Below are positions 4,001-63,700 of a stretch of 64,000 nt of DNA, piece by piece. Each line of letters opens with the position of its first letter. Positions within the stretch are counted from its first letter, which is position 1. The notes under the pieces are model-generated. The model was given only the letters and a program-made list of their open reading frames with translations, made no database searches and was not told the origin of the DNA. This DNA is from Alentia gelatinosa (Eukaryota > Annelida > Polychaeta > Phyllodocida > Polynoidae): assembly GCA_950022655.1 (NCBI GenBank), contig OX465579.1:135045118-135109117 (forward strand), read 5' to 3'. The position numbers were made by a program, and so were the translations under genes.

Positions 4001-7000
4001 TGAAATCTGCTAAAAGTAGACACATTTATCACGTGTATGTATCGTTGTATAACCGTTGCTATTTATGTTACTTTTCGTGGACAGTACCTCCTGTATCGCA
4101 GCCTGGGGCTGTGTGTCGCTCTGGCGGAACCACCTGAGAATCAGCGTCTCTCTGTACTGAACGACGTGTGGAAGGTCGTCATGAAGTTCAAACTCCCACA
4201 GGTGAGAGCGCCAATGTCGCGTGGGCTGACAAAGTAAAATGTCATTTTGTAAAAGCTTATTTATCATGGGAGATAATCGGCGGCAAACCGATTTATTATT
4301 TACCGATTACGAAGTCCCCATGGAAATATATGGGGTATAGAAACCCACTAGTAATTGTTTCTTAGCTATCTGAAACCATTGATCATGGATTTCAAATGCA
4401 TTGATAAAGTTCGTTTCAGTGTAGATGTCGAAGATTTGCATTTCAATTACAGTGTAAATATGGATTTATTGGCACTGTAAGTACTAATACAATATACGAT
4501 GTTTTTTATGGTTGGACGATCGTAAACAAGTCCGTGTTGACGTCACAATACACTTGCTATACTTGTGATATCACTTGTTGTCAACACTTCGTTGTTTACT
4601 ATCGTCCCTTCCTTTGTCTGTGGTTTAACGTCCCAAGGGACCCTGAGCTAGGGTATATAGGGACCATAAGAATGATCGCATGTTCATAACCATTGATTAT
4701 TATCTTTGTAATGTATCTACATCAAAATAATTCAAACTGGAGATATTAAAGATTGGGGAAAAGAATAAACACTAAGCTAATTGATTTATTAGCAGGTGGA
4801 CGGTTGGTCTTTAGGTTATGGCTATAGCCTACTGTAGTACAACTGCTTATAGAGTCACTAGATGACCTGACCACATTTTTGCCTTTTATAGCTAACTAAG
4901 TACAGATAGGAATATAATTTCTGTTTTGGACAGAAGGTTTTATGGTGGTACAATGCATTACAGTTTTGATATTTAGTATTTTGGTATGGATTTAAAAAAA
5001 ATAGTGAATTCAGTTTGGGGGGGGGGGGGACTTCTGTAGTCACAGGTCCATTTTTAAGAACTCCTTTATGCACATATTTCTACCCCTTAAACTGGTTCAA
5101 TCATAATATAATATGCCTCATTTGAAAGAGAATAAAAAACAGTAGGTGCTAGGAAGTGGAATTTTCTAGGTGGATTCTATATTTACTGAGATATTCAAGT
5201 ATTTGTTAAAAGTGGGGGGGATTTTCAGTGAAATTGGCATACTCAAACACATATTTACTCAATATTGATTTACATTTAGCATTAGTGCAACAATTACCAT
5301 CTCCATATGTGGCACTGACAGTTGCTTACACCCTAGAAAGTGTCATTATTAAGGTGAAATGTATATTTGATGTGCTATTCATGTATTTTTGCCAAATCTC
5401 ATAATGGGAGGGGGGGGAGGCAGAAGGTGTATGAGAAGATGTTTTATTCATCATATTTACACACAAACAGAAGTCAAAATGGTTCATAACTTTGTTTTAG
5501 GAATGAGTCAAGACCCAGTCAAATGATATTGTTTTGTAAAATCATTTGTAATGTCATTTACCACCAGATATAGGCTTGACCTACTTTATTGGTGTACATA
5601 GGAATAGAGTTTTTCCCCCCAGTTTGAGCCACATGGTCAGAGGGAAGGTCTGTGTGCACTCATCCATGAAGGTGAAACTGAATAACGTTTCCTATGTACT
5701 CAGGTCATTCTTGATTGGCAATTGAATCCCCTACAGGTAGCCAAATATAAGTGTGCATTGACCCATGAACTGCTGAGTTCACAGAGTAGTAGGGCTTTAA
5801 ATATCAAATCAATGCAGGCCCTTCCCTATTCGTAGATGCCCTCCCTCCCTCCCTCCCTCCCTCCCTCCCTCCCTCCCTCCCTCCCTCCTCCCTCCCTCCC
5901 TCCCTCCCTCCCTCCCTCCCTCCCTCCCTCCCTCCCTCCCTCCCTCCCTCTGTATTGAGTTTTAAAGGCGTCCACCTGCTCATTTGGTCTTTAAAGGCCA
6001 ATATTTCTATTTGATAATGCACTCTTAGCTCTTGTTTTCCATGGGTTCGTGATTCGAGTCTTCATTGATAACGCTCCTTTTCTACACTTCTCATTGACTG
6101 AGCATCTGAACATAAAGAAATATGATTGTGTCCTCCACAGGAATACATCAGTTGTGCTGAAGTGTGGATCGAATATGTAGTTAAGAATTTCTCGGTGAGT
6201 ATATTTATTCCATTGACACAAATAGTTCACAATTTTGTGTTTTGCTTCTAACATTTTATTCTTATAATATACCGAAGTCACTAAGATATTTCAAAAATCT
6301 CTCATTAGATATAACCTTGGAGTAGATTATCTAAATGCTTCACAAAATATACACAAAACTATCAACTGAAAATGAATAATCACCCACTCTTTTCTCATTG
6401 ACAGAAACGTGAAATCAACACAATTCTTGGTGACGTCATCAAACACATGACCCCTGACCGGGCGTTTGAGGACTTCTACCCTCAGTTACAGTTAGTCATT
6501 ACCAGGACGGTGGACAACGTCAAAGACTTCTCCATGCTCTTCTCTATGGTGGGTTTTAAATTTTTTAATGTTTGAAGTGTCTGGGGAAATGTAATGTGGT
6601 ATTGAAATTGCAAGAGATAGCACATTACCCAGAAATGTTGTATTTGAGGGTAACATGGCGAGCCGATTCTATCCTATATAACAGCAATAAATTTATAGTA
6701 TATACTAATTCTGGTTACAACAATTTTTTTCATCAATGGTGTAATTAACTTCGACCATTGAACTCTATTGAGTTTTAAAGGTGTCCACCTGCACATTTGG
6801 TCTTTAAAGGCCAATATTTATATTTGATAATGCACACTTAGCTCTTGTTGTATCAGGGTCACCCTATTATGGTGGTACAAGTAAGAGTATAAAAGGACAT
6901 CGAAACGTTGACCAATGGAATAAAAACTTTATTTGTCAAATCTGGGAGTGGACATCTCTTTATTACCGAGAGTTTGACAGGCTTCACTACATCATATGAT

Positions 7001-20300: not shown

Positions 20301-23300
20301 CATATAAACAATCATATGAAATTTCGTGACATTTCTTTATAAAACCTCATAAAGATACCAAGTTAACAATAGTGTTCCTTATATACCACAGGTGAGCCGG
20401 AGTTCAAATATGTGGGTAACATGCACGGTAACGAGGTGGTAGGGCGTGAGTTGCTCCTACGACTCGCTTACACCATGTGTGAGCAATACTCGACGAATAA
20501 AGAGATCAAGAAGCTCATCGATTCCACCCGCATCCACATCATGCCCTCGATGAACCCCGATGGCTGGGAGAACGCCTGGAATTACATGCAAACTGTAAGT
20601 ACTCTTATCGGATGACTGTTGATCAACAGTGTTGAAATCCATTGTAGGAATCGATGTTTTTCAGTTAGTGGATATTTTAGACTGATGTTATCCTATTGCG
20701 TTTGGGTCAGTTCCTTTTTTTCTTTTAATAAAGATTTTCGTATATAACAAATGAGTTTGAAACAGGACTGAGTCCAGCTAGATACTATTGGGAAAACATT
20801 TTGTTCTTCGTTTCGGCCTTTTCATGTGTATGATTACAAATTGATTCCATATTTATCGATGGTTATACAGATTTTTTAGAATTACTAACCACATTTATAC
20901 CTTACTCTGGCATAGAAAATAAATACTCTGGTATCCATATCCACAAAAAGTGATGATAAACCGAAATTGCATGTAAACGCAACTCAGCATTGGCAGCATG
21001 TGTTAGTTCTAAGTGTATAAGCTGTACTTAGTGTCATATACCAAAGGAAATACACGAGCTAGAGATGGGGGTGTAGATAGATTACTACTAGAATTAAAGT
21101 CGAGGCTGACTGGTGTTCAAATTACAAAATATCCATCGCGAACGGTGTGTCCCAAAGTAATAAATACATCAAATGGTTCAACTTATCGGTAAGACTGGGA
21201 TTAATGGTGGTTTCAGCAATGGTAGTAGTACAAGAAAAGTATCACCCTGTATGGGTGAAAACAGAGTCGCCTTTAGTTCTCTGTTTATATGACCAAGGCA
21301 TCACGAAAACCAGCCTTCCGGCTGATGATGCCGTTTATTGGTTGTCTTATGATAATTGTCATACGAAAGAGAGAATATTGTAAACACGATAGACCAATAA
21401 AATATTGAAAAAAAGGGAAATAGTAAAAACAAATCTTTGTTACTAACAAGAACACAGGCCATCCTTGCACCGAAATACACATTGATGATAAAAGGTTGTT
21501 GGGTTGGATGGACCATAAACGCCCAACCGAAAGAAGTATCTCTTTCAGTAGAATCGTCCACCTGTAGTGTGAACAAAGATATTATAATAGACTAATCTCT
21601 TTGGTGTGAGCTAAGTACTTATATGCTCTACACCCTGATAAAGGCAACATCGCTGTAGCCGAAACTAGTAGGTGATTAGCAGCAATTCTCAACCACCAAC
21701 AATGAAACTGATTGTACAGAAAATTCTACCACTTAAAAAGTTCTTTCAATCAAGAAACAGGCTGGATGTTCGGTTGGTTTATGTCATTTCTCCCATCATA
21801 AATACATGTATGTATCAGTATTGTTTAGGCAAAATACCTCTTTCACTTAGAGCAAGCATCCATCAACCCCGATAAGCTTCCCGGCAAGAATCAAACAATT
21901 ATAGTCAGGAACCCTTTCCAAGTGTAGCGTTTAAGGCGGGTGGGAGTATTAACATAATTCAAAGAAAACCACAATAGCCCTAGCAGTCTAATTTACACGA
22001 TGCATATATTTGTAATCTATAGTATATTTCTTAATAATATTGTTGTATGTAATGCCCTGATGAAGGAATGCGAGTTCCGAAACGTCGGCCAGTGAATTTG
22101 AATACATAGTTCACATTGGACTTTAAAACCGTTTATCAGTCTTTCTTGTCTTAATCCAAGTTTGGGGGGTTATTATTTCTTTCACCTCTAGATATGAGGA
22201 AAACATCCTACTAAATATGGTTTATACTTTAGTACAAGTTTATAAAAAAATATATGCTTTTAGATCAGTGTTATCACCAGAAATAAGTCAAATTTACTAA
22301 TCGGGAACAATCGCAATCTTGGTGCACATTTCTTTTACTTCCGATTGGACCCCTATATGTCTCAATGATAAGAATTCTATCATAGTTAATCGGAGTTTAT
22401 TAGGAACTTTTCTTCCCGTGGTTTATCAGAATTTATCGGGGTCGGTGGTTGCCTGCTCTTAACAAAAGATATTTGCTGACGTCAGAGACTTGGCGTATGT
22501 AATTCTCCAGGTGGTCGCTTCAGGATGTGCTAACTGGTAGTAATAGAAAGCACATATCCAAGTCCGTAGAGAAAGCAATTTGATACATGGATGGCTCTAG
22601 CTGCTTCGGAATTAACACCAAGTCTTGGCTAATATATATGTGTCTACTTTTAGCAGAGCTGTGTAGCATTTGTAGAAAGCATACAATTTTTGTGCCAGGT
22701 GCCAATTTAAAAAAAACTAATAATTGTGATTTCTGCATGTTAGCTGACCAGTCAAGAGTTTTGGGAACTTGATGTCATTGCAAACATATAATTGGGTATA
22801 TATCCCGGCAAGTTTTCTCTGAATCAGAAATTAATTCCAAAACCAAGTCAGATAACGAGTCCCATGCGGAGTCTCCATTTCACTTGGCGAATCTCATACA
22901 CGTAGATACATTACGTAAGATACTCAGCCCAGGTATACAGATGTACCACACACCTGTCTCCAAGTGAGACAACACTGGGTCCTCGGGGGAGTAATTAGCT
23001 GGTTGCCAGTTTGCACACACACTTGGTGGTGAAATGCAGTTCCTATCGTATACTACAACATGAACTAGACAGCCAGATCCAATTTAAGCCCCTCTGAATG
23101 GAGAATTTAGCAAACCGTCTTGATCAAACCATCTTGATTAACCCTGGACATCATGGGCAGGTATTAAATATATCCTGGTGGTTGTAATGCGCGTATGAGA
23201 CAATGCTGAGCGCTCAATACATGCATGCTGCTCCGCCGCAGTACCTACGTGATAGGCCACCTTTAGTAGCTCGTAGGCTACATACGTCTCAGGGTGGGCT

Positions 23301-29300: not shown

Positions 29301-32300
29301 GGTATGAATTTCTTGGGTATACAGATCACATACACGAAATATGAAAATATATTTAGTATTTTTCAAGATATTGATTTCACACGATCTATTGCTTGATCAA
29401 TCTATATACAACCAAATCAATATAGAAGTATTAATTTGGTTTTCCAAATGACTCCCGCCCTGTGCCCTATTCTCCTCTTTAGTGTCTCGTCTAGAAGTAT
29501 ATTTCATCTATTGGAGTATAAAATTCTAATAGAGTAACCAACGTTTCTCTCTTTACTGACAGTCCCACATCGGAGTCAAAGGATTTGTGCGTGATGCTGA
29601 TACGAAGGAGCCTATCACTCACGCCGCCATCAAAGTCAAGAATGGGACCAAGACCGTCAAGCACGATGTCTTCTCTGGTGAGTGAAGACCCCTGTCAGAT
29701 AGTGTGCTAAGATACTAGGATACATATTTATCTCACGCCTGGTATTTATATCCCCTAGGCTTTATGTAATGAACTTGTTTTCCATGGGGGTTGGGATTTA
29801 GCTCAGTCTTTAAGGCACTGGCCTTGTAATCTCAAGGTTATAGGACTTCGAGTCTTAAGGTGTTCGAGTCCCACCCCCCAGCAATGGTATATTTACTGCT
29901 ATATCAAAGGCATATCCTTCTCATACCATGTCTATATGGTGTGGGAAGTAAAAGAACTCTAAATCTCGGTAAATGTGTAGGGGTGAGATTTTTACCTGAG
30001 TTCATCACATAGATTTGATCACCACCCTCGTCGTGTAAAAGAACCTTAAGAAATTCTGGTAAGGACCTATAATGGTTTACTGGACGTTAAAGGAAAGCAA
30101 ACCAAGCCAATCGTTTTTCATGGCCCTTCAAGATAAATACAGAAAGCAGCCCGTTTTGATCACAGTCGTCGTTCTCAACAGCGTTTGAACGCGGCGACAG
30201 GTGAGTGAATATTGCAAAGCATTCAAACAATATGGAGAGCGACGACTGCAACCAAAACGAGTTTCTTTCTTCTGTAGTATGCAGGAATCTAAATTACGGA
30301 TATTCCAAATTATGAGGTTTTCATTTACAATGACTAAAAGTTCATATTATTATTTCGGTTTGACCTGTAGGTCAAGACCGAAATATATTAGGGGTGACGG
30401 GGAACGGTTTTTGCGGCTTACTTTATAATACATTAAAATAATATATTCTGAATAATTAGAGCCTTGGTACCCTCGATACCGGGTCCGTACCCGGCAACAG
30501 TAGTGTATTTATATATATTGCAACAGGCTTCCACCTCCCTCCCTCCCTCCCTCCCTCCCTCCCTCCCTCCCTCCCTCCCTCCCTCCCTCCCTCCCTCCCT
30601 CCCTCCCTCCCTCCCTCCCTCCCTCCCTCCCTCCCTCCCTCCCTCCCTCCCTCCCTCCCTCCCTCCCTCCCTCCCTCCTTCCCTCCCTCCCTCGTAGGTG
30701 CGTTCGATCCTTATATTTATGTTACGTTGAGCCTCTGACTTGCTGGTGACCTATTTGACCTGATTCCCTCGAACACGTCTGGTATCGGCACCCGTTGCGG
30801 TTTAATGAATACCTACTAGCGGGTGGGACTTGCTCTGGTCAGATGTGGTCCGCACCCGGCAACAGTAGTGTATTTTTATATATTGCAACAGGCTTCCACC
30901 TCCCTCCCTCCCTCCCTCCCTCCCTCCCTCCCTCCCTCCCTCCCTCCCTCCCTCCCTCCCTCCCTCCCTCCCTCCCTCCCTCCCTCCCTCCCTCCCTCCC
31001 TCCCTCCCTCCCTCCCTCCCTCCCTCCCTCCCTCCCTCCCTAGCGGCTGGGTTCCGCGGGTGACGATACCAGACACGTTGGATGGAATCAGGGACCTGTT
31101 TAATAATCTTTTTTATTTCTTAAAACATGTATACATTACTTGTTGAAACCGTAATCATGGCAATGGCATGCCAACTTATAATCCTTGTCTACAAAGCGAC
31201 CACTTCGGGCCATGTCCCTGCCGTATCCCGATGGCACCGGGCCACCTACAGGTACCAGATTGTATCTCTAATTGTCCAGAGTCCTATACTTTGGAAATGT
31301 TTAAGAGAAAGCGCTTAGAATCAACGTAACGATTACAAACTCAATACTGATTTACCTCCTTCATATAGCTCATGATGGTGACTACTGGCGGCTGCTAACC
31401 CCTGGTCGGTATACGATCATTGTGGAGAAAGATGAATATGAACCAGCAGAGAAGGAGGTAGAGGTGACCAATTCCGAGCACACAGAGGCCGTCAAGGTAG
31501 ACTTCGAGCTGAACAAGTTGCCGACTAAGATACCTGCACCCTCGAAGGCCGGAGACGACAAGGACAGCGACGCCGACCTCGACAATGCTCTCCACAAGAT
31601 TGAGGTAAATCTTAATCTGATGAAGCTCTCATGCAGACTGATATCTTTATTATCAGGAAAAGCATGTTCAGCATGATTTATTTTTAAATTATTCAGATGT
31701 CTATAATGTTTATATGTAACAAAAAAACCAAAATCTCTCTTTTCTTCAAACAATCTCAACCTAACTCTCTATGCACATGAATTTGCTCCCTTCATTTTGT
31801 CTGTCTTGGAGTTTGTTCAGATTTGCTGCTGAAATATACACTAGACATTAAGAGAGTAATGTGTACTACCTGCAACATTCCCCTCTACTGGTGGCCATTA
31901 GAATTGCTGTTTTAAGTCGTTCCACATCAACTTCAGTTTGATATGGTTTGACATACACCTTATGTTAGTGATTACATCTAGTGAAGGCTAGTGATTTTAG
32001 AACGGATTAGCTTCGTTAATATGTATTTTAATCATGCTGAACACCAACAGGGATGTCAGTATATGCATCTAACAAATAAAACATCCTCATGATGACTATC
32101 TCTTGACTTTTCCTCTAGAGAGTATATTAATTTTTATGATTTACATATGCGTGACTTTCAGATTATGATACAAATGTATCTCAAAGGAAAGGGATACAAA
32201 AACAACAATGGGGTAAGATTAAGAACCCAGTCACATGATTGTGCCATTCTTTATCAGTGGTGGAAATGCAAGAAAAATAAACGCTTTGGAGCAATTTGCA

Positions 32301-40377: not shown

Positions 40378-42291
40378 TTCTTTTTTTTGTTTTTTTGTTT
40401 TAAGTGCTTTATTGCATTCGATTACATAGTATCGCTCTTCCAGCAACAGCAGATGACAATTATGACTGAGCACATGAATGTGGGTATGTACAATGAAATC
40501 GCTCCTTCAAGCGTAACATCTTTAAATAGCTGACGTTCAAGCGACAACTATCAACCAGTGAACATTCTCATTGCGGATAACGTATATAATTCTTAGTATG
40601 CCCATCAAATTTACTCAATCTAATCTTTTCAGTGTTTCGTAACCGTAATATTACGACGTAACATATTTACACAATACCATATCTTAAGCCTTAGCGGTTT
40701 TTACAGCATAGTACTTGACATACAGGCTCGAACAATACATGTTTCACTTACATCCCATACTAGCGTATTAAAGCTTGGCCATAGCCTCCAAGACCCCTTT
40801 TTTAAATAACAATTTTGAACAATTGTAATGTAGCTGTGCGGGCAAGGTGTTCCAGAGGCTGATTCTGACATAGACTGCAGTCTTTCTAAACTTCTTTTCT
40901 TTGGTCGTGGTAAGTATAGGGAGCTCTTAGCCATTGCTCTCGTTTGTATCCGTTCCTTTCCCAGAGTGACCTTTTTGATTAGGGATAGATCATTTAGATT
41001 CCTAATTACGCCCACCAAAAGTAGTCTTCTTCTAGTTCCAGGCCGTCTAACCTTACATTTCCCCAGCAACTCGTCTGTTGATATGAACTTCCCATCCCGA
41101 AAGGCTTATTTTCTTAAAGCTATTCTCAATGCCCTAAAGACACCGCGATCTATCTTAGTTTTAATTTTGTTAGTGCTCCCCTCTAGCAGGAATAAACAAT
41201 GATCTAGCAATGGTAACAGGCACGTTTTAACGATATTAAGGGCTTTCTCCCTCTGTATGTATTTTATAACCCTTCGAAATACTGCGCACTTGTCATTTAA
41301 CATCCCTAATAGCTTCATACCATGTTTATTAAAGTTTAGTTCGGTGGCTATTGTAGCTCCTAAATAGTTCATTTCGTCTACTGATTCCAGTGTTCTGCTG
41401 CCTAATAAGAGGCGCCCTCTAATATCCCGTTTAATTTTAGCTTTAGGTCCGTGATACATTAACTTTGATTTGTTCACATTGATGGTTAGCCTGTTAGATC
41501 TGTACCATGCATCTAATTTATTTAACACGCACTGCATCCTAGTTTCAGCCCCTGGAAGGTTTGTGTCATTGAGCACGACCACCAGGTCATCCGCATACAT
41601 AATTACAAAACAATTTTCCGGGAGGCATCTGGGCAGATCATTCACATAGATTAGGAATAGCAGAGGGCCCAGGATGGAACCCTGTGGTACCCCAAACTTT
41701 ACATCTCTTCTATCTGACTGCCCATCGCCGTATCTAGTAAAACAAGACCTTCCATGTAAGTAGTTCTCGAACCATCTTATAGCCTTCGGCCCTATCCTTG
41801 CTTCCGACAATCTATGAATTAATAAGGAGTGGTCGACACAATCAAACGCTTTTTTTACGTCAATATATGCAGCTATAGATATCCCCTTAGCGTTGTCTGT
41901 CTCAGATAGATGCTGCACTAATTTAAACACAGCCTTGCCTGGGACCGGCAGTACCCACACCGGGCGCCAATTTCCTATATCGGCCAGGTCCCCAGATTTC
42001 GGCATAGGCGTCAACCTTCCTTCTTTCCAGTTTTGTGGGAAGTCACAATCAATCACTAGTTTTCACATAACACAAGCGAAGATATCGGAACAAGCCAGTA
42101 ATGAATTTCTTAAAAGACTGCATTTTATGCCATCCATTCCGGAAGACTTATCTACCGGTATTCTTTGCACCAATTTTATAACTTCCTTATTTATTATATT
42201 CTCGACACTAAATAAGGAATTTGTAAAATTGGTGCAAAGAATACCGGTAGATAAGTCTTCTGGAACAAAGGAATAGGCCATTAAATAGCCA
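40378..42291 (-). pseudogene. 5'-truncated LINE with decayed reverse transcriptase
   Basis: Reading on the minus strand, the main open part 42056-41106 encodes reverse transcriptase blocks PMPKSGDLADIGNWRPV, AYIDVKKAFDCVDHSLL, KFGVPQGSILGPLLF and the catalytic YADD. Upstream, 42290-42063 holds DKSSGMDGI and ends in an in-frame TGA (42065-42063). An in-frame TAA at 41108-41106 interrupts the C-terminal part, which continues to about 40740 through a frameshift. About 30 residues that usually lie between the first two blocks are missing. The 3' end has AATAAA (40414-40409) and an A-rich tail ending near 40378. The element is a dead CR1/L2-like copy inserted into repeat A2, lacking endonuclease and ORF1. 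Confidence 0.9.
42139..42263. repeat. Fold-back at the 5' end of the truncated LINE
   Basis: Arms 42139-42193 and 42210-42263 are inverted copies of the same LINE segment (the part encoding LVQRIPVDKSSG), with few mismatches and a 16-nt loop. This is the kind of junction left by twin priming or template switching during LINE insertion. Confidence 0.85.
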
Positions 42292-42471
42292 ATAAATGCA
42301 GGTCCTTCCCTATTCATTTAGACAGACATTTGGGTGAGTGGGCATTCAGATGAGCAGGTAGTCGTAAGATATTACATAACAGGATATCAATAGGTATAAA
42401 TAGTGAATTGTTTATTACAATGGATACAGTATTGGACCGAAAGTAATTCCTGGGTGTAATATTCAATACGA

Positions 42472-43713: not shown

Positions 43714-46712
43714 TCACATATCATGATCTTTAATAGCTCGTTTAAAAGACAGTTTAGTGGGTAAATGTTTTATGGTTTCTGGTAGATTATTCCATAAGTT
43801 TTTACCTCTATAACCTGGGCTTTTTTTCAGAAATTCCGTTTTCGGTCTTGGCAGACTAAAAACTATTTTCTCGGACAGTCTAGTTTTTTCGATTTGTAAT
43901 AGTTTCATCAACTTGTTCAGCTACTAATACCGTATTTAGTACTGTACTGTCTTGTGTAGGGTTATGTTCTGGTGTAATAGGTTGTGTTGGTAAGATGCTG
44001 GATGAGATTGCTAGTTTACGCATATATAGGTAGCTGTCAGCTCGTATCTACGTTGATTTAACAATCGAATCGCACACTTCTTGTGCAACTCCAATGTTGA
44101 AATACCTTTACTCTTATGCAGTAAGCATATGCGTAAGCCCCTATTCTGGATACGCTGTAGTTTAGCTTTTAATACACTAGTACTGGAGTCATGGACGATT
44201 GAGGCATAGTCAATAATTGGCATAATCATCTGCTTATATATTCTTTGTGCTATATTTAGAGAAAACTAAAATTTTCCTGTTCAGTTTCTTCATTACATGT
44301 TTCATGTTTTTATCAAATGTTAATCTATCATCTATAATAACTCCTAAATAATTATATTCGGTTACTTTCCTGACCATGTTAATCCCAATGAATAGATCCG
44401 GTAGTAATGCTTTCTTCAATTTATTACTAGAACCATGCCATACTATTTTGGTTTTTTTCGTATTAATCGATATCAGGTTTTCACAGGTCCAGTCATATAG
44501 AGCATCTAGGCCCTTTTGTATCTTTTGTGCTATTTCTGTCGGGTTATTGTCATGGTAATAAATTACTAGGTCATCTGCATACATTTTTATAGAGAGACCT
44601 AGGTTTGTTAGTCGCTTTGCGAGGTCGTTTATATAGAAAATAAAGAGTAAAGGTCCTAATACAGAGCCTTGTGGGACTCCGTATCTTACATGTGCGGGAT
44701 CTGATGTATGACAGCTGAACTTTGTCAATTGGCTCCAATATGATTCTATCCATCTCAATATGTTATCTTTCAAGCCTATCTTGCTTAATTTATTTAATAA
44801 AATTCCATAATGGACCGAGTCAAAGGCCTTACGGAAGTCTACATACACACTGGCCGTAAGTAATCCAGTATCCCTTGCCATATAAAGATCTTCTAACAGA
44901 AGGTAAATTGCATCTATCATCCCCCTTTCTGGGAGATACCCAAATTGCTCATTAGTTAAGAGGCCGTTTTCCAACAAATTTTTTAACAGTATACCATGGA
45001 CTCATTTTTCTATTACCTTAGTTTGTAGTTGTAGGATAGATATGGGTCTCCAGTTACTGGGGTCAGACAGTTTGCCAGACTTTGGGATTGGTGTTATACT
45101 TGCTATTTTCCATTCATTAGGAAAAATCCCTTCATCTAGTGAGCGTTGATATACGAATTTCATCTGGGGTAATAGTAGTTTCATGGAATCCTTTATTATC
45201 TCACTATGAATATTCTTAATTCCGCTCGGCTTATAGATACTAATATTGACTATCAATTTCAAGAGGCAAGCTTCATCGATCTCATACGATTGTTCTCTTT
45301 CTTCAGATTCTCTCTGCTCTTTTACATTATGGTTATGATTTGCTATAGTAGGGTTTATTTCCATGGCTAACTTTTCACCTATCTGCGCAAAATAATTATT
45401 GATAAATCCAGGGGAGTTTTGGGGGTGGATGGTATTGTTTGTTTCTGGGTCTACAATGGTCGGTGGAGTGTCACTAGGGGTTTTATTTTTCCAGATAGTT
45501 TTTAGACCTCTCCAGAATCTTTTTGGGTTATTTTCACTTTCTTTCAGTTTTTCCTTCATAATTTCAGCCTTAGCCCTGTTTGTCATTCTGCCAATTTTGT
45601 TTCTTAATTGTTTAGCCTTCTTCAAGTTACTTTTATTCTTTGTCTTGGTAAATTCTTTTATATGGTGTTCCCGTTCTTTTATAAATGACAAAATTTCATC
45701 TGTCATCCACAGTGATCGTTCCTTCTTGATAACCCACGTCTTTATAGGACAATAAAAGTCAAGAAAGTCTGTGATTTCTGTTACAATATATTTCCATAAT
45801 TTAGAAGGATCTCTCTCCGTCCAAAAAGAGTCCCAGTCAACTAGTCTGAGCCATTCTCGGAGTTAATCGGTATCATATAGTCTATAATCCCTACCAGTAA
45901 ATTCGGATTGAACATTTTTACACTTCAGTTTTTTCCTGCAAACGAAGACAGGGAGGTGATCACTAATTGATAAATTTAATACACCGGAACTCTTAATATT
46001 GTCACAATTTGTGTATATATTGTCTATACAGCTGCCTTTGTTTCCAAATGGTCTTGTACATGTATTAATCAGTCTATGACAGTTAAAGTCTGCCATCGCT
46101 TCAGTTAGTGACTCAGCTTCTTTAGTATTTGGTGTAAAGTAGTTGATATTGAAGTCGCCCAATATCCAGAGCTCCATCCTCTTAATGTTTTCGATGTTTG
46201 CTAAGGTCTTAATAAAATTTATAGCTAGGGTTCGACTCCCTTTTGGCGGCATGTATATATTACAAACTAAGACTGTTCTTTGCCCTGGGGGGGGGGGGGG
46301 TAATTTGGATCACTTGAGATTCAAGGTTATAGGTAATAACAGTGTATTCTTCTAATACTAGGGCGTGTTTTGCTAGGTATGATTTTAAATAGCAGGCAAG
46401 ACCGCCTCCTGACCCTTCAGGCCTATCATGTCTGAACAGTTTTCTATCTCCCCAAGCAACCATGTCGTCTGGGTGTCTATCCTTCAACCAAGTTTCACTG
46501 AAAGTGCAGATGTCAAAATTTTCAAGTAAAGGGAACAACTCGTTTTTCCTTTTAAATAAGCTCCAAGTATTGTAGTGCATGATTTTCAGCCCATTCATCT
46601 GATTAACCTTATTAATATCCATTGTCATACCTATAAATAACGATTTGGTGAACAAGGATGATGAAAGGTGATATAGATGTAGAAGTTTTACAATGCAATA
46701 CAAAACTCTCAC
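43714..46712 (-). pseudogene. LINE ORF2: endonuclease-reverse transcriptase, broken
   Basis: Reading order on the minus strand: 46712-46260 begins the APE-type endonuclease (KIMHYNTWSLF, FDICTFSETWLKD), which is thrown out of frame at a G12 run (46288-46299). It resumes at 46252-45863 (LWILGDFNIN, GSCIDNIYTN, SISDHLPVF). Then 45706-45002 has a linker and the first reverse transcriptase block (PIPKSGKLSDPSNWRPI), ending in an in-frame TGA at 45004-45002. In the same frame, 45001-44234 gives VYVDFRKAFDSVHYG, YGVPQGSVLGPLLF and catalytic YADD. Further frameshifts precede 44229-44011 (PIIDYASIVHD) and 43911-43714 (GKNLWNNLPETIK, a usual LINE C-terminal motif). A full ORF2 would nick DNA and prime reverse transcription; this copy cannot make it. 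Confidence 0.93.
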
Positions 46713-47461
46713 AAGACTGATCCTCGTGACGTGAGAGAGAAGGCGCCTGGTGTGCCAGGGGTAACTGGGCTTAGCCTCCAGGCGTCGGAGAGATGATTAC
46801 TAGGTGAAGCAGAAGCTTGTTATATGAAGCACATAAAGAATTGAGAGAGAGGTAAGTAGAAAAACTGTGTGGTGTTTTCATTTCAACAAGAAAAAACATA
46901 TACATATTGAGATCAATACTGACAAGCAGAACGCAATTTAATTGTCTCATACTACTATGTCATCTTCTCTATATATGCTTAAGTGAGTTCAAGTCCAGAT
47001 ATCTAGTGCCAAATACTGCCAATGTTAGGCAGTGCGGTTTCAAGATATATCTGTTCATTTCAGTTCAGTTCAGTTCAGTACTGCCCATTTTTAGGCAGTT
47101 CAGTTTCAGTATCTTTCCAGAAATGACAAAATGGAGACAATCCAGAACCTGGCTAGGAGGCCCAGACATGATGTAATATATAACATGACATATGATAACA
47201 TAAACAAGATCAAGCAATACACAGAGTTATTTTGTAGCGATATATAATATATAATGTATCATATTAACCGGGTAAGTGGTGACCAGATGTTTTGACCGAT
47301 TTTCTTGTGCTTATATTTCATTTATATAACAATCAGGTACATAACATTTGTCAGCAGAAGTCATCACCACTCGTTTTTAAGTGGCGTATAGTCACTAATT
47401 TCATTGGGAACTATCCCGTGTTTAGGATAGGTTGAATTTCTGTCTAGACTATTCCAATGCA
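46713..47461. other. Unexplained segment between LINE ORFs
   Basis: About 750 bp with no ORF continuing either neighbour. It has a short CAGTT tandem (47066-47085). It may be an inter-ORF spacer or a later insertion; no inverted ends or target duplication were found. Confidence 0.4.
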
Positions 47462-48227
47462 CTACTTGTGATACAGGTGCAGGAACTCGCTGATCGTCTT
47501 GGCATAGGCAGAGGCCAGTTTATCTAGCTGTAGATAATCCGGGTGGCAACCATCGTGAAGCTTTGGCTGGAAGCGGAGATGGCCTAGATAGGCCAGCACG
47601 AAAACCAAAGCTATTTTTGTTCTTCCTGACCTGATGAAACAAGTAGTCCACCCGAGGGGTGGGGTAGCCTGCTTGGTTATTGATATGCACGATGTCAGCG
47701 TTGATCCACCTTATCGCCTGGTTTACATCCGCTTGAGCAGGATGCAATGGGTACTCATATTCCTCGCGATTATAGCGGTTTAGATCAATCCCGTAGTTTG
47801 CAGACAGGATACACTTAACTCTTGGGAATGATGTCTCGATGCGGTCCACTGCCGATTCTAACTCCCTGTGGATGGTTTCCCGGCAAGATACATCAGAAGC
47901 GTGGTCAAAAGAGCAGTTTTTCACAAGGTATCTCACCTCTTGGTCTGTATCCTCAACTACATAAGATAATTCCGTCTTTTCTATCTTGGTCACATTGCAG
48001 ATGGCGGCTGCTAGAATTACCACGTCATATTGGGTATCTCCCGCATTCACTTTTCGTTGCAGGTCGTATTCCGCTACATGGACAGCATCTTCTATGCCTG
48101 CCCCCCCTAAAGATACAACCTTGGTTTTCACAGGTAAATACGTTGTCTTTAGCCTTATTAAGTCCTCCAGCTGGGACAACCTGGAATCGCCTATCAACAA
48201 GAAGTGAAACATTCTCGAAGTTGCCAT
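47462..48227 (-). pseudogene. LINE-borne SGNH/GDSL esterase ORF
   Basis: The likely start is ATG at 48227 (MATSRMFHF), 82 nt after the NADAR ORF stop; the frame is open further upstream to 48350, so translation as a downstream ORF or by frameshift are both possible. Block I is LLIGDSRL with the nucleophile Ser in GDS. VVILAAAICNVTKI gives the middle strand. The final block DGCHPDYLQLDKLA supplies the Asp-x-x-His pair, but only after a one-base frameshift near 47615. Length about 250 residues suits the family. Esterases of this fold are established in ORF1 of CR1-like LINEs, where their role is not settled (lipid or acyl-ester targets are proposed). It ends with TAG at 47464-47462. Confidence 0.85.
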
Positions 48228-48309
48228 ATTGAACACAGGTAGTGACAGAGATATACAACGGGTATAATGGAACAACCGGCTTGTGTGAAGTGTACAGTGT
48301 CCTTGCTCT

Positions 48310-50315
48310 TCAATGGTCGCAGGGGTTTTGTCCAAACATAGCGCGCACATTCATGGTTAGGTGCCCCTGCCTATTACGGCCAGGGAAAGCACTTGATTTC
48401 ACCTCATACTCAACTGCCTCTATGGGGTTACCCCCTCCCCACGTTTTACTGGCAGTCGCCTCGACTAACTCCGCTCTCCCCGTATTTAGTAGACGTACTT
48501 TCAGGCTCGTGTTTTGGTCATATTTTGCGATCATTAAGGTTTGCATTACTCTCTCTCGTTTACGATACCAGTCATGCTCAGGGGTGAGTGGGACCGATTC
48601 TCCAAACATTTTTATATCGGAACCTCTCTTGATCGATAGTATTTGTGTTGCCTTTTCAGTCCTACCCATATCCAAAAAGCGGGCATAGAAATAAGCCTGT
48701 TCTAGGCTCACAAATTTGATAGGTTCTTGGTTCTGTTTCATGACTATACTCATCTGGCACGGGTACCAATTGCTCAAGTACGCTGTGTCTCCTGCATACA
48801 GGATCTTACCATCATTTGTTACTCTTATGTTTTCGCTCTCACTAGTGGACGGTATTTGCGATACCGATGGTGGAGGTTGTGTGTGTACATGCGATTTATT
48901 TGGTTGGTGAGGCCCAGGGGCCATTGGTGGGGTAGGTATATCCATAGATTCCACTTTTCTCATTTCATTGACGGCAGCATTATCTGGTATTTGCATGGGT
49001 TTCCTGGCATTTTTTCGTTTTCTCCCTACAGTGGGGTCATATGGTTCAACATAGGTGGTCGGAATTTTATCATGCTGTTCCGAGAGATATCGAATCCCAT
49101 TGATTTCAAAGCCCTCTTCAAACAACTGTGCATTTTTGCCCAGCTTTTTTGCTTTGTTCACTGCTTCTCTCGCTCGTCCCTTGGAGACTCTCAGTTCCCG
49201 AGATTCATCATTAACAATCAAGACATTTCGTCCGTAGTTTAGTTCTCTCAAGCGCCATTTGTTGGTAAGAATCCTATTCTTTATGGATTTGTTGCTACAC
49301 GATACCAAGATCGGTGCTTTGGGATTGTGATGGTGAGCTTTGGGCGATTGCAGTCGGGTTGTGTATAGGAAATCATCTCCCATGAATGATACTCCGATGT
49401 CCTCGCATATGCTGTTAAGGACATTCCACAGATTATCACTTTGGTCCAGATATAGGCCACGAATCACAAAATTGCGATCAGGGGACTGTACACAATGTTT
49501 TACTGTGTCCATCTCAAGTAGGACAGCAGTATAGTTTGCTTTAAAGTTTGTTTTTGGAGTCAGATTGACCGATGGATCTAATTCCGATAATGTGCAAGGG
49601 TTTTGTTCATTATCACCATGTCTTTGAGGATATCTGCATTGTTTCGGGCACAGTTATCCTTGAGATTTTGTGTATTTACTTTTAGTTCCTGCAAGTCTGT
49701 GTCAAGTTTAGTCGTTTCAGTAATAAGGTTGTCAATAGATCTATTGCTCTCTGCCACTAGCCTTTTAACATGGGAAAATTCGTTAGTTTTCTGCATGTTG
49801 AGTCATCATTAACTTGTAGATTGTTTTCAAATCTGGTTCTATATCAGGATCTACTGATGGGCATGCTTTACGTGGTTCAGGATTTACTGGTGCTCTATTA
49901 TCAGTGTTAGCCTGCATGTTTATAGGCCATTTCTGTGCAGTGTTTACTTTGTCGACAGTCAGGTTGAGTAGGTCAGCGCAGCTAGCCTGCGGTACGGGCC
50001 TGGGGTGTGTCTGCTGGCTGCCGCTTGCGGCGGGGAGCCTTGAATAAGCATATTTGAGATATCACTTTCTTTAATCGTTGACATCGATAATGTAATTGAG
50101 TCATTTAGTATCGGTTTCATCTTTTTTGGATCAGATGTGCTTGAATTACACGATGAAGCACTTAGACTTCTAGACCTTTTAGAAACTATGTTGTCCGGTC
50201 CGTCCGCGTCTGTATGTAGACTACCTGACTTGGGTTTGTTTACCCAGTCGCTTAGCAACGGGAAGGCACGCATTGAATGTATGTTCGGTGAAGACATTGA
50301 TACAAAATGGATCAT
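48310..50315 (-). pseudogene. LINE ORF1 with RNA-binding region and NADAR domain
   Basis: The intact part, 49512-48310, is 400 residues. Residues about 14-150 (FVIRGLYLDQSDNLW, APILVSCSNKSIKNRIL, FEINGIRYLSE) follow the layout of the RRM and C-terminal domain of LINE ORF1 proteins. Residues about 150-230 are a Pro/Ser-rich linker. Residues about 235-395 are a NADAR (YbiA/DUF1768) domain: AYLSNWYPCQ, SLEQAYFYARFLDMG with the conserved Glu, VMQTLMIAKYDQN, LLNTGRAELVEA, WGGG and the end motif GRNRQGHLTMNVR. NADAR proteins of bacteria act as N-glycosidases on riboflavin-pathway intermediates and some remove ADP-ribose from DNA. Upstream, 49796-49578 (a coiled coil) and 50315-49959 belong to the same protein but are split by frameshifts near 49985, 49800 and 49590. 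The N-terminus is poorly defined. Confidence 0.85.
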
Positions 50316-50340
50316 ATATCACTTACTTGATTCATAAGAC

Positions 50341-51631
50341 AGGTGATCTAATGATCATTGAAGTCACAATACCTTTATAGATGACTCTGTTACTTTGATT
50401 GGCAATCCACTGTCTTTAGATTCATATAATGCGGTATCTACCACGGAGCTCCACAGGTCCCCTCTCTAGCCGCGCATTGTTCAAAGGTATAGATTTTATA
50501 GCCTGACACGGAGTTTACAATATACTGGAAACAGCTGCCAGTATCTCCAACCATCAAGTCACTTGTCTGGGATTTTAAGCTTATAGAGTACAGAATAAGG
50601 CATATGAAATAGGTAAATGTTTATTTACTTAACACAGAGCAATAGATTAACAACCTCTGACAAGTGAAATGCAAATAGAAAATAGATTAATGTGATGGCA
50701 ATGACATAATTGATTTCGTTTATTTTGTTGATTGCTGAACACTTTTTGTATTTAATTACATACATCTTTAAATGCCAGATACAATTCAATGACTAAATAC
50801 TTTACAAGCTCTTAGACCTGTCGGCCCATTTAGCCGCCTAGCTACTGAGGTTATAGGTCCTAATCTGTGAACAAAACAATTAGCTTTTCCCCTCATGGAT
50901 AATGGTGCCTTCTCTGCAGAACCTTCGCCACTTCTGCCTGATTATAAACGTGCCACCACTACAGCTACCACGGCTATGGAAGCATACAGCTGTAAAGTGA
51001 CCCCCCGCCCGCCTTCCCCCAAAAGACAACCCAAAACAGAAGTAGTTGCTCCCTGGGTTTCTCTATCCTAAAGTGGTTCCAGAGGAAGAATTATTCTTGT
51101 AACAGATATCGTTAAAAAAAACCCATAAGATTTAGGGGGAAAGCTGTTCAGAACTATGGGGTGCACATACTGTATATATACAGATCACGTAAGGAGGCTC
51201 ATTTACTTAACGATAAGTTACCCCAGGCAATCAACTGTCTCTGGCAGGGCCCCAACAAGCGGCCTCCCGCCTACCTCATCTCTAGGTCCACAAAACGTGG
51301 CCCACTCAAAGAAGCATCGAGCGTATAGTAGACGCTGCCGGCAGATCTACCAATACACAGAAATGAACAGAATATCCAGGTTAGATAGCCAACGCTATCC
51401 CAACCAAAGAGAAAAAAGGAGCACTTTAGACCATCTCCGCTTCCAGCCCCTTCCAAAGTTCCTCCCATACTTCCTGTTCCTTAGCCTGTGTCGAATACTT
51501 TCTCAGGGTTGCAAATGTATATTCGGCACATTTCGGCGGTCTCGATAGCACCTCTCAGTGACATGTCTGTGACATGTCGGTGGCCTGGTAAATACTGCGC
51601 GATTTGTACAAAAATCTCGAAATTTCTGCTA
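50341..51631. other. Spacer between LINE and MAD1L1 3' end
   Basis: May include the LINE 5' leader at its left end. No recognised gene, RNA or repeat; short open frames have no family features. Confidence 0.5.
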
Positions 51632-51769: not shown

Positions 51770-54700
51770 TTAGGGCACGACCATGGACTGCTGAAGTGTG
51801 GTTTGTCTGTTAAACAGCTGCAGTGTGATGCTGGAGAGGAAGGCTGGGATGCTGTCTGCATGCTGAAGGTATGTCTCGATCTTGTCGTCCAGACAGGTGG
51901 AATAGTCCGTAGATAACAGTTGCATGACGCCCGACTCGCTTTGCTGCAAATAACAACAAAACATCACTATACACGCACATGTATATATATTCCACAGTGT
52001 AATTTGAAAGAAGGGAGTTTAAAGGTGGTGCTCCATTGTGCCGATTATTGGTCTCAGAACAATCTTCACCCAATCTCCAACCGTTTTCTGATTGTTCTTG
52101 CCTCATGTGCGACCATGAGGAGAACATGGTGCTGATTACAGACCGCTAGGAGTTCGAGACGAGTGTAGACCGTAGGTCCACTGCAGCTCCACTATCGGCG
52201 ACTAGGTGCCAAGCAGCCAACGACCAAATGATCGCCACCCAATCTCCACAGGATCAGCTGCAGTGGAGCACGGCCTTTTAAAACCACATTATCATGATCT
52301 TCTATGTTTACTTATGACTGTCATCTAGAAATTGCTTTCGTCTTTCTTTTGTCTTCTTTGTGTGAAAGCACTGACCAAAAGAGGGATACCATAAATTCCT
52401 ACGCAAGACGCATCTCTTGAATAAGACGCACTCTGACTTGGGGAAAATCCTATAAGACCCTGGGACACACAGGACACTGCTAGTGTATCATTGAGTACTG
52501 CCGGGTGACCACCACCGGTTCCCAGGTACAGGAACCCCGATGCCCAGCGACGGGTCCTCTAGACTGGCCGCCTATAGACTACATTTCAGTGGATTTCATG
52601 GACATGTTTGAAATTGAATAAAAACAACCGGAAACCGGAAATTCCCTGAGAACTGTCATCCCTGAAGAAAACAGGATTTCAATCTCGACTCAATCCCGTG
52701 ACCTTAGAATCGAATGCGCTACACTCCTGTCATGTAAGCTGCATACAAGCATGTCATTACGCTAATATGACATCATATAGTTCATCAGTTTTTCACTGCG
52801 TCTACCCTGAAAATAGGATACTGTAACGATCGTGTATCCGGAATGACAACAACACTGAGAATTAAAGTTCAACACGTTCAACACGTTATATTGTAGCAAT
52901 AGACAGTTACATTCAGCAGTCATGAACAGGCAATAGTCCAAGCTGGTCTACATTACAACAGGTAGAGAGTGCTCAGTGCTCAAGGTGGAGACCTCGCCTC
53001 AAGGGCTGGTACACCAAGTTTCTCGATTGCGGGAAGACTGTCCATATTTATAGTGGTCCATGTGACGTCATCTCTCGTGGTCTCACGCTCTCCCGAGAAA
53101 GCCCGAGACTGCACATCCCCGGAATGATCGGAGAGACCATACCCCCGGATCCATCGGAGAGGGAGTCGGATACATTCATTACACTACTGAATTTCTATTA
53201 CCCTCGAAATTGTCTATGTTAGAGGTCGTCTACTCAATCAGCTCACCTGAAACATGAGGAACTCGTCGGGAGACTCGGCGTAGATGTTCATCAGGCGGTA
53301 CTGGTTGTCGGTAGGTATGTCGATGCGGTATCCCAACAGCTGGAAACACACCTCCCGGAACTCCTGTGACTTCTTCTTAAACGCCTCCATCAGACGTTGG
53401 TTCTTTAGCTCGGCCGAGTTCAACAAAACACGGATTTCTGTATTCATATCAAGAGGAATACACATGTATCTGTCATATTACTCAGGGTTTTACACATCTT
53501 TAGCTCTCTCGAGTCTTTTGATAATACCAAGAGGTGAAAATCTGTCACGTCATTCTACAAAGTTCTTCATATTTACAATTTGTTTGTTGTCTGTTTGTTT
53601 TTGGTTTAACTTCACAGGAGACCCTGAGGTAGAGGGATCATCATTGATTTCAGCTTTTCACTATCTTAGACTTTTGTCAGTCAATTCTCTTAAATGTTTT
53701 AAGTATTTTATAAAAAATCAAAGAGATTGGTTTCTTTCAAAAAGCTGATAATATCTTTCTTTGGAATAGTCTCTTTTTCAAGTACTTTCTTCTATTTTCG
53801 TCCACCCTTTCACAGTTTGAATCAACGTCTTCTCCCATGGTCAGTAAATCATTTATAGACAATAAAGAGACTACCATCTCTACTCTCTCAAGATATTAGA
53901 CAAATTACAATTATGAATTGCCCCATGGCACTTTCATAGCGGTATTAAGTATCAAGTGTCAATAGGGTTGTCGGTAGGTATGTACTGGTTCAGAAACATT
54001 AGTTGTATATTTCCTTTGAATGAACCTGTGTCTGCAACTCGGTACCTTGCATCTTTATCCTTACAACCCATATAATAGGAGAAGCAAAGGCAGCCACATG
54101 GTCCAGATGGTTTGTCTTGCATGCAACACAAATATTATCACTATAGGGAAAAAATATTTCCATAGGAAAGATTGCGCCACTTATTATGTTACACTAACCG
54201 TGCGCCACACTATACAGGTAGAACGTCTATGTGACATTCAATATGTTTCAGAATCCATGTGAGACTCACAATATATCACCATCCCGAGACACTAGCTGTG
54301 CCAATGCTTGGAGAGTGGTAAAAACCAAAGCATGGTTCTGGTGGAAGTTGGCTGCATTACTATGCCATAAGTTTCAAAGATGGTGGACCCCCCTCATATT
54401 AGGAGATTAGACAAAAACACATGCCTCACTGGCCAAATATAAGTTTCACCTAAATAATGATACTTCATAGGATGTAAGCAACTGTCAGTGCCACTTATGG
54501 AGATGGTAAATGTTATACCAATAGTCATTGTAAATCAATATTGAGTAAACATCTGTTTTAGTATGCCCAATTCACCTAAAATTTCACCCTCCCCGCTTTA
54601 ACAAATACTTAAATATATCTATAAATATAGAATCTACCTAAAAAAGTCCACTTCCTAGCAACTACCTTTTTTATTCTCTTTCAAATGAGGCATGTTATAT

Positions 54701-60700: not shown

Positions 60701-63700
60701 TGTCACATGAGCTGCTCACTCCTACAATGAATCACGATAGATTTGTCAATTGATCAGATTTTTTAATTCTTGAAGGTGAGCAACAAATACAAAAACAATT
60801 ATTTTGCGTACATCTGACGACTGACATACAAACTAGATTAGTAAGAGTTAATATAATGGCGCGTACTGTACTGTACTATGATTCACTGTTGAAAGTAATG
60901 AATCACAAAGCGCTGGTTCTTACCTCACACTTTGCCTGTAATTGAGCTGCTTCTGCAGCCCTGCTTTCTGCTCGCGTCAAACGTTGTGTCGCACTCTCTA
61001 GTTTCTCCCGCAGTAAATGCACGTTCTCTTTTGTATTTCTGTGAAACAAAATCATCATGTTATTTCTCCCCTGATTGTTCCTTGGTATAATATCTTTTAA
61101 TTTGGGGGGTTTATTTTTGTCTTTTTCCCGTAGATACGTTTTTACGTGTATAGACCATTCCTCTTACAACCGATGCCTTATAAAGCTGATGTCACCAAAA
61201 GAAAATTGTATTCAATGTATAACCTAAATCGTTTATATTACATCTCTTTATCCGATTTGTTGATTTTATCCCCTTTTGTCTCAAGTAAACGAAGTCTTTA
61301 AAGGTCCATGACTGATAAAAAAAAATTAATGTCCCGCTTTGATGCCTGTGATTACTCTGGTGCAGTAAAAGCTATTAGGATTTGCAATATGGTTCTTACG
61401 AGCAGTAACTTGTCATGCAACTTACTTGCAGTAAGTGTTTTCTTCTCGGAGAGTTCGATTTTCCCGTTCCAGTTCTGATAAGCGCTCTAACCGATTCTTC
61501 ATCGCCTTGGTTACAACAGCATCCTCCTCCATTCTATTTAGTTTGGTTTGTAGGTCCTGCAACAAACGAGTGAAGTGTGCATTAGACTTACAATTAGTTT
61601 AAAACATGTTGAAAATTATTAACATGAAATGATATCAAATTAAACATAACAGGACCCAAGACGTACCCTTGAGGTAATCCATAAGTGACCCTGGCCCAGT
61701 CAAATTTCTCTGACCCAAATACTTTCCTCTGTTTACATCCACTTAGATAAGGCAAAAACCAATTTAGTAATGATGGCAGATGATCAAGGTAGGACAACTT
61801 CTCCAGTAAGCGGCCATGATGAACACTGTCAACAACAGCTCATACGACTTCACCTAGATCACACACCAAATAAAACTTATTTGTAAACTCATTATTTGCA
61901 TCAAGAGTCCCTATTCCCGATCTATAACTATATTGAACCAAAACATGATTAGGAACAATTCTGACTTTATTTATCTGTAAATATGCTGAATGAACCAACC
62001 ACTTATTCACCTGCTGCCTCCCCCCATTATGAGATTAGGCAAAATTATGACACAAATAGTACATCAAATATGTTTCCCCTAAATAATGACACTTCCTAGG
62101 ATGTAAAAAACTGTCAGTGCATTTATGAAGATGGTAAATGTAACACCAAGGCCCAATTTAAACCAATATTATGTGAACATCTATTTTAGCATATGCCCAT
62201 TTCACCCAAACACCTCCCCCCTTTTAACTAATACTTGAATCTCTGTAAAAATAGAATCTACACAGAAAATTCCACTTCCTAGCACCTACTGCTTTTTTAT
62301 TCTCTCTCAAATGAGGCATATTATATTATGATCGAGCCAGTTTTAGTGGTAGACATATGTCCATAAACTAGTTCTTAAAAATGGACCTGTGACTCAAAAA
62401 GTCCCCCCAAACTGAAATCTCTCTTTGTTTTTTTAATCGATATCAAAATACTAAAACTGTAAGTTGTTGTATGGTCATTCTGTCCAAAACAGAAATCATA
62501 TTCCTTTCTGAATTTGTTAGTTATAAAAAGGAAAAATATGGTCAAGTCCACTCGTGACTCAGAAGCAGGTGTATTACAGTAGGCTATACCCATAACCTTA
62601 AGACCAACCGTCCACCTGCTAATAGCAGTATGAAACAGCCCCCACCCTCAGGTGGGAACACACCTGACAGATAGAAAGTGCACATCAAATCAAAATCGAT
62701 CTCACAGATTTAAAGGGAAATAAACCAATGGGAAGCTCTTACTAGGGTTAGGGAAAAACAGGTGCAAAGATGAGCATGCCCTAAAGGATTTCTCTCAAGA
62801 CGTGCACGTGTCGTGATAGGATCTGGTGCCATGTTCAGCTATGTCATCATTTCGTATTAGGATGTTTTAAGTAAAGCTTTACCTTTACTTTGTATTCCGT
62901 GTTGAATGATTTCATATTTTGCTCGTCTAGTTCTTGCAATCTCATGTTCAAGTCGTTACAGCGCCTACAACAAAACAATTATACATAGGTGAGCTTAAAT
63001 AGAGAGTGCAGAGCTGATCCACTTAACCAGCAGTGGTGTGTAATCTACAGTGCAATTTGCACATACAATAAATCAAACTTTAAAAAAACTGAGTCGGGTT
63101 AATTTACTCAGTGTGCAGACCGTCAGCATATTATTATGCTGCCAGGAGCCAGGCCTGGCTGGACCACGGGCCGGGTGGTAAGTCTCTAGGCATTAATGCA
63201 AAGTTTAGTAACTTTTAGTCTATTTAAGATATCAGAAATCGCCTGTCTCCCCTACAAATTGATATAAAGCACTTGTAAATCAGCCTGGGGGATAGGTAGC
63301 ATCGATATTTTAAGGCCTGCTCAGAATCGGGAACAGTCGGTGAAAGTGCGTAAGGATGGGGACAGTCGGTCATTGGGTCGGATCTATTGGGCAAAGGTGG
63401 AATCAGCCAGTCTATGTGTCGATGTCATATAGGCTTAATGCAGTGGTGGCATTTTGTGCAATATTTCTTTATTCTTCATCTGTTTTTAAGGATTTGTGAT
63501 TTATGAGTTTTCTCTTACATAAAACTAGTGGTGAGATAGGTCTTAAATTGCTGACATAAATTTTGTGACTCACTTTCCGGGAACGCTGATTATAGGTAAG
63601 GTCAGAACGATGATAATAAAGAAAAATCATGTTGAGCAACAACAGCGGCACTGAAAATACATTGTACATATAAGCAACAGTTTACCACTCATCACTCACT

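Follow-up and report, generated by a model that had tools for sequence, protein, structure and literature searches.

In the 64,000-nucleotide window, the whole stretch of Alentia gelatinosa DNA that was analysed, a LINE copy on the minus strand carries what looks like an ORF1 in which a NADAR domain is fused in one frame to the part upstream of it; both glutamates of the NADAR active site are kept, and three phosphate contacts are changed. The copy is dead and decayed, and the 447-codon stretch that holds the fusion is its longest open part. The explanation put forward here, held tentatively and at somewhat below an even chance, is that the ORF1 protein of this LINE ended in NADAR and was followed by a GDSL-like ORF, and that the NADAR domain, held on the RNP, would bind and probably cleave ribosyl adducts. 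Compared with the original prediction of a NADAR domain joined to the RNA-binding ORF1 of a LINE in an architecture not known to be established, the observation is confirmed in part and the interpretation supported in part: the NADAR fusion stands and the novelty of the architecture does not.

Layout of the locus

The pieces of the LINE are given below in the order in which they are read.

49962..50318, minus strand: N-terminal piece of ORF1 in its own frame, ATG near 50298; stop-free, presumably ORF1 from its position
49786..50061, minus strand: next piece, in another frame, probably of ORF1; stop-free, no Pfam match up to E 10
49581..49802, minus strand: coiled-coil piece of ORF1, in the frame of the 49962..50318 piece; heptad pattern and weak, below-cut-off coiled-coil Pfam matches
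48310..49653, minus strand: 447-codon open frame, the main one of ORF1, with its ATG at 49512; encodes the RRM-like and CTD-like part, then a Pro-rich linker, then NADAR
48340..48786, minus strand: NADAR domain, residues 243-391 of the 400-residue ORF
47523..48350, minus strand: ORF resembling GDSL/SGNH; overlaps the stop of NADAR and probably starts at residue 42 (about 48227), some 80 bases beyond that stop; assigned from a GDS motif only, presumably the GDSL one
47465..47710, minus strand: C-terminal end of the GDSL-like ORF, shifted into another frame, with DGCH at 47543-47554
46660..47464, no strand: about 0.8 kb without coding signal, from the GDSL-like ORF to ORF2
46263..46796, minus strand: ORF2 piece, start of the endonuclease; PF03372 E 0.0054 for 46263-46712
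45866..46309, minus strand: ORF2 piece in another frame, remaining endonuclease; PF14529 E 6.8e-7
45005..45862, minus strand: ORF2 piece linking endonuclease and reverse transcriptase (RT), still in the same frame beyond a stop; nothing in Pfam above cut-off
44237..45001, minus strand: ORF2 RT piece, same frame after a stop; RVT_1 E 1.3e-25 for 44237-44977
44014..44265, minus strand: ORF2 piece past the RT, another frame; resembles the window's second RT element
43714..43880, minus strand: C-terminal piece of ORF2 with stop at 43714-43716; reading frame, presumably like CR1/L2 C-termini

Upstream of 49653, ORF1 is broken into pieces in other frames (49962-50318, 49786-50061 and 49581-49802), so at least three frame changes are present. 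The GDSL-like ORF loses its frame ahead of the D-x-x-H piece, and ORF2 contains frame changes and in-frame stops from 46263 to 44014. A chance ORF as the account of the NADAR-ORF1 frame was rejected, as was a plus-strand reading of the locus. No match was found in an Rfam search, and in the search for target-site duplications three pairs of flanks gave one common 11-base word and four 10-base words, which is about chance by our estimate.

The LINE sits 3' of the MAD1 spindle-checkpoint gene, a C-terminal exon of which (53241-53477, minus strand) matches PDB MAD1 chains at E 1.3e-19; a further C-terminal exon, as we take it by eye, lies at 51773-51950 (minus strand). Elsewhere in the window, a zinc carboxypeptidase exon occurs at 20373-20612 (plus strand; Peptidase_M14 E 6.1e-24), with further pieces that seem to reach about 31 kb (this exon and that of MAD1 are in keeping with an animal genome), and simple repeats at about 5840-5980 and 30470-31050 read as PPSL/GREG repeats in several frames.

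NADAR domain and its active site

The uninterrupted frame that had been predicted to join an ORF1p-like region to NADAR was borne out, since one frame runs through the ORF1-like part, the Pro-rich linker and the domain. NADAR is supported by profile, sequence and fold: PF08719 gives 81.9 bits against a cut-off of 35.1, covering positions 10-160 of 163 of the profile, and the predicted model has the NADAR fold, being poor just past the WG motif (block means 44-45). In the alignment with the P. nicotianae NADAR (8bau), E43, K50, R79, W89, R93, E125, D130 and W133 correspond to E271, R278, E305, W315, R319, E351, S355 and W358, respectively. E271, W315, R319, E351 and W358 are therefore kept, and the phosphate contacts at R278, E305 and S355 are changed (Lys to Arg, Arg to Glu and Asp to Ser). 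A glutamate at the E125 position is the rule for the YbiA subfamily, to which E351 assigns the present domain; residue roles were also taken from PMC11543638 (in excerpt).

The three changes are at positions that are nearly invariant in the sets compared. Among the best 120 of 1933 NADAR matches, the usual residues in P. nicotianae numbering are present at E43 in 98%, K50 in 100% (120/120), R79 in 98%, W89 in 100%, R93 in 99%, E125 in 99%, D130 in 100% and W133 in 100%. Because these 120, from a search with a two-row alignment, form a narrow group near the weak relative P0001, ten more diverse references (six from phages and four from the 120) were added, of which 9/10 have E at 271, 10/10 K at 278, 9/10 R at 305, 10/10 E at 351 and 10/10 D at 355. 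To restore the usual residue, at least 3 (K to R), 2 (R to E) and 2 (D to S) bases would have to change, which makes late random decay of one copy an unlikely cause.

It has been reported that, in an E. coli NADAR, a K-to-R change retains hydrolysis in vitro and loses the rescue of cells, and that the counterpart of E125 is Asp, the change of which cost efficient activity (both PMC11543638, in excerpt). Residues of the NADAR domain are important in SNA-3, a protein of RNA processing, where the mutated YbiA-critical residues include the counterpart of the Asp at 355 (PMC9303266, in excerpt). Judged from its sequence, the present domain is neither plainly intact nor plainly dead, with the two glutamates present and part of the ADP-ribose phosphate pocket changed.

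The same residues bear on a different account of the domain, namely that NADAR has lost its enzymatic role here and instead binds ADP-ribose, a nucleotide or RNA, helping the RNP to assemble or to localise; this would be compatible with one or two elements. The multi-base changes at three sites where the usual residue is found in all, 98% and all of the best 120 of 1933 matches, and in 10, 9 and 10 of the 10 diverse references, argue for it, but both glutamates and both tryptophans are kept, of which a purely structural role would have no need. We regard this account as a serious candidate that falls clearly short of an even prospect.

Upstream part of ORF1

In the numbering of the 447-residue frame, the predicted structure upstream of NADAR comprises a helix at 73-85, strands at 96-100 and 115-119, helices at 122-130 and 132-137, a strand at 144-147, a helix at 158-170 and strands at 175-178, 181-184 and 187-191, the block means for these elements being 43-76. 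This succession of helices and strands is what we take to be the order expected for an ORF1p RRM followed by a CTD. In addition, the heptad statistic of 49581-49802 (minus strand) was equalled in 2/1000 shuffles, which points to the coiled coil of a LINE type II ORF1, here in another frame. Up to E 10, the RRM-like and CTD-like fragments matched nothing in Pfam and the upstream part matched no PDB sequence; the fold comparison of this part gave no clear fold, with no L1-ORF1p chain among the rows shown. The predicted label 'RNA-binding ORF1' is accordingly matched by structure order and coiled coil and lacks a Pfam, PDB-sequence or clear fold match; it may be called a reasonable reading.

GDSL-like ORF

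In the GDSL-like ORF, GDS occupies residues 54-56, a GG pair 82-83 and N 119, and DGCH follows in a different frame. The ZfL2-1 esterase has its listed residues in the same order, S, G, N, D-x-x-H (PMC3905857, in excerpt), with shorter spacing than in the present ORF. Searches of this ORF against Pfam, NCBIfam and PDB gave no support for it as SGNH, and its single-sequence model (pLDDT 37.6) is unusable. The predicted series of SGNH and endonuclease-reverse transcriptase (EN-RT) ORFs beyond NADAR holds for the common strand and for the clear EN and RT domains, the SGNH part having no library match. A stretch of 22 bases from the end of the GDSL-like ORF (47565-47586) recurs with one mismatch on the opposite strand at 51427-51448 (plus), with a score of 39 against a best of 28 in 200 shuffles, and is perhaps a scrap of another copy.

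ORF2 and the number of elements

Both domains are clearly present in ORF2, which is putatively of CR1/L2 type, the endonuclease by PF14529 and the reverse transcriptase by RVT_1. The RT motif GVPQGSVLGPLLF is presumably of the CR1/L2/Jockey sort, unlike that of L1/Tx1. Two further RT fragments lie in the window:

40704-42317, minus strand: second RT fragment, truncated LINE; 35.6% identity to the first RT over 222 columns
61597-61935, minus strand: third RT fragment, small remnant; 34.5% identity to the first RT over 119 columns

The EN-RT part is possibly of the same element as the NADAR-ORF1, and one element and two neighbouring elements are held about equal. With two adjoining elements, to which we give a nearly even chance, the NADAR-ORF1 and the GDSL-like ORF would make up the 5' part of a LINE that may be Tx1-like, like those of oyster, and the EN-RT part would be a CR1/L2-type element in its own right, about 3.3 kb long and without an ORF1. 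Such a division is suggested by the 0.8 kb without coding signal between the end of the GDSL-like ORF and ORF2, where the sense A/T skew is -0.04 against +0.23 in ORF1, +0.09 in the GDSL-like ORF and +0.18 in ORF2, and by the GC3 of the two parts, which is 282/623 codons (45%) in one and 325/873 (37%) in the other (p 0.002). The published NADAR ORF1s, as far as excerpted, sit in Tx1, and the RT here has a motif that we take to be of CR1/L2/Jockey type. It speaks against the division that NADAR-ORF1, GDSL-like ORF and EN-RT share one strand and stand in the proper order, that ORF2 begins at its own start and not at a random truncation, and that no other ORF2 fit for the NADAR part was found within the window; moreover, loss of the 3' instead of the 5' part is unusual for LINEs. 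On the side of two elements, the EN-RT part alone is about the size of curated bivalve L2 and CR1 elements (mean 3991 and 3791 bp; PMC10294476, in excerpt).

No RT recognisable as Tx1-type was seen among the RT pieces of the window, and ORF2 may have been lost from the NADAR element. A nested insertion, in which the second RT (40.7-42.3 kb) would supply that ORF2, was rejected: this RT has 35.6% identity to the first and no adjoining endonuclease piece was seen, and it is therefore taken as another, truncated element.

Copies and relatives

With the NADAR-ORF1 ORF as query, the viral contig collection gave 14 pattern matches, none confirmed, and with the RT query 2 matches, none confirmed; a collection of prokaryotic genome contigs gave 67 matches, likewise none confirmed. 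Because the collections are viral and prokaryotic, these searches say little about animal genomes. No second NADAR copy appeared within the window. A protein search with the whole ORF found the one weak relative, P0001, a search with the NADAR domain alone found no relatives, and NADAR relatives in phage (110) and plasmid (31) records were all below 60% identity.

That a single copy was seen, in these collections and in the window, would fit a one-off capture, in which a host or foreign NADAR gene landed in one LINE copy and is not a family trait. Against this stand the single frame that joins the ORF1-like part to NADAR through the linker, the GDSL-like ORF directly after the NADAR stop, and the several oyster families published, in excerpt, with NADAR ORF1s, and we consider such a capture very unlikely.

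Possible function and significance

In the explanation preferred here, an RNP-held NADAR, the ORF1 protein with its coiled coil and its RRM-like and CTD-like parts would coat the RNA of the element, and NADAR would thereby be tethered to the RNP. There it may bind, and probably cleave, ribosyl adducts, such as ADP-ribose on guanine, located on the RNA or cDNA of the element or on compounds near the RNP, which would be of benefit to the element. NADARs, including those of YbiA type, have been reported to remove ADP-ribose from guanine (PMC11543638, PMC11125620, both in excerpt). As the best explanation it is favoured by the NADAR evidence, the one frame, the ORF1p-like structure order, the upstream coiled coil and the same-strand GDSL-like ORF, EN and RT, as well as by the kept E271, E351, W315, R319 and W358 and, from excerpted literature, the removal of ADP-ribose from guanine by NADARs, the presence of NADAR in other LINE ORF1s and the importance of NADAR residues in SNA-3; the upstream part without homology match, the three changed phosphate contacts, the poor model past WG and the single dead copy count against it.

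That the domain answers a host NAD- or ADP-ribose-based defence is one version of the RNP-NADAR reading and is speculation. It has been reported that human LINE-1 retrotransposition is not reduced by PARP1 overexpression (PMC4441479, in excerpt), which counts against the RNP-NADAR reading, and a restriction of LINEs by ADP-ribosylation is thus not shown by these data. A bolder form, which we think unlikely, is a three-gene LINE of CR1/L2 type encoding ORF1p-NADAR, a GDSL-like hydrolase and EN-RT, in which NADAR, obtained by exchange with Tx1 or independently, would have been taken into the RNP and, with a rebuilt phosphate pocket, would act against ribosyl groups that the host attaches to the RNA or cDNA of retroelements; if true, NADAR capture would be a recurrent counter-measure of retroelements, like that proposed for macro and NADAR domains in RNA viruses. 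Reversal of nucleic-acid ADP-ribosylation has been shown in bacteria. A retroelement keeping NADAR on an RNA-binding protein would mark ribosylation of its nucleic acid as worth undoing in invertebrates and would supply a protein for testing the reversal, while the pocket changes, if family-wide, may indicate that this NADAR has acquired a new substrate or acts as a reader.

Comparison with known systems

The original prediction had not recognised the fusion as an established LINE architecture, but in Crassostrea gigas several of the Tx1 LINE families recorded in Repbase have ORF1 proteins that appear to contain or be YbiA-family NADAR domains (PMC12477816, in excerpt), and the present NADAR-ORF1 is therefore not the first. 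The same excerpt suggests a role of retroelement NADARs in processing RNA intermediates and describes a conserved YbiA-family NADAR in the Pol of one Ectocarpus Gypsy lineage, likewise retroelement-borne. Beyond PMC12477816, the titles and beginnings of abstracts that were listed brought up no other LINE with a NADAR. The present locus adds one more case to this little-explored kind of fusion, and its active site is altered. It shares a YbiA-family NADAR within a LINE ORF1 with the oyster elements, compared here by their excerpted description only, and differs from them in that the adjacent RT is CR1/L2-like and a GDSL-like ORF follows.

With the LINE type II ORF1 (coiled coil, RRM, CTD; PMC4120745, in excerpt), the upstream part shares the coiled-coil piece and the predicted order of RRM and CTD, whereas it carries a C-terminal NADAR and has no homology match to the solved L1 type. 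In CR1, L2, RTEX and Penelope-like elements, esterase ORFs have the same order of S, G, N and D-x-x-H upstream of EN-RT as the present locus (PMC3905857, PMC5408684, both in excerpt); unlike these, the GDSL-like ORF is a separate ORF after ORF1-NADAR and is SGNH only putatively. It has been reported that LINE lineages exchange ORF1 modules (PMC4120745) and that esterase ORFs move between retroelement types (PMC5408684), both from the excerpts above, and a NADAR-ORF1 shared between Tx1 and CR1/L2 is therefore plausible.

NADARs of RNA viruses and large DNA viruses have been surveyed, and the RNA-viral forms were proposed to target host-made ADP-ribose adducts (PMC9503650, in excerpt); our fold search of viral models recovered proteins of gill-associated virus, yellow head virus and Ingleside virus together with many large DNA viruses and phages. 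As in the present LINE, the NADAR fold in invertebrate RNA viruses and large DNA viruses belongs to proteins of genetic parasites, but the viral domains lie in replicase polyproteins or stand-alone proteins, without a reverse transcriptase.
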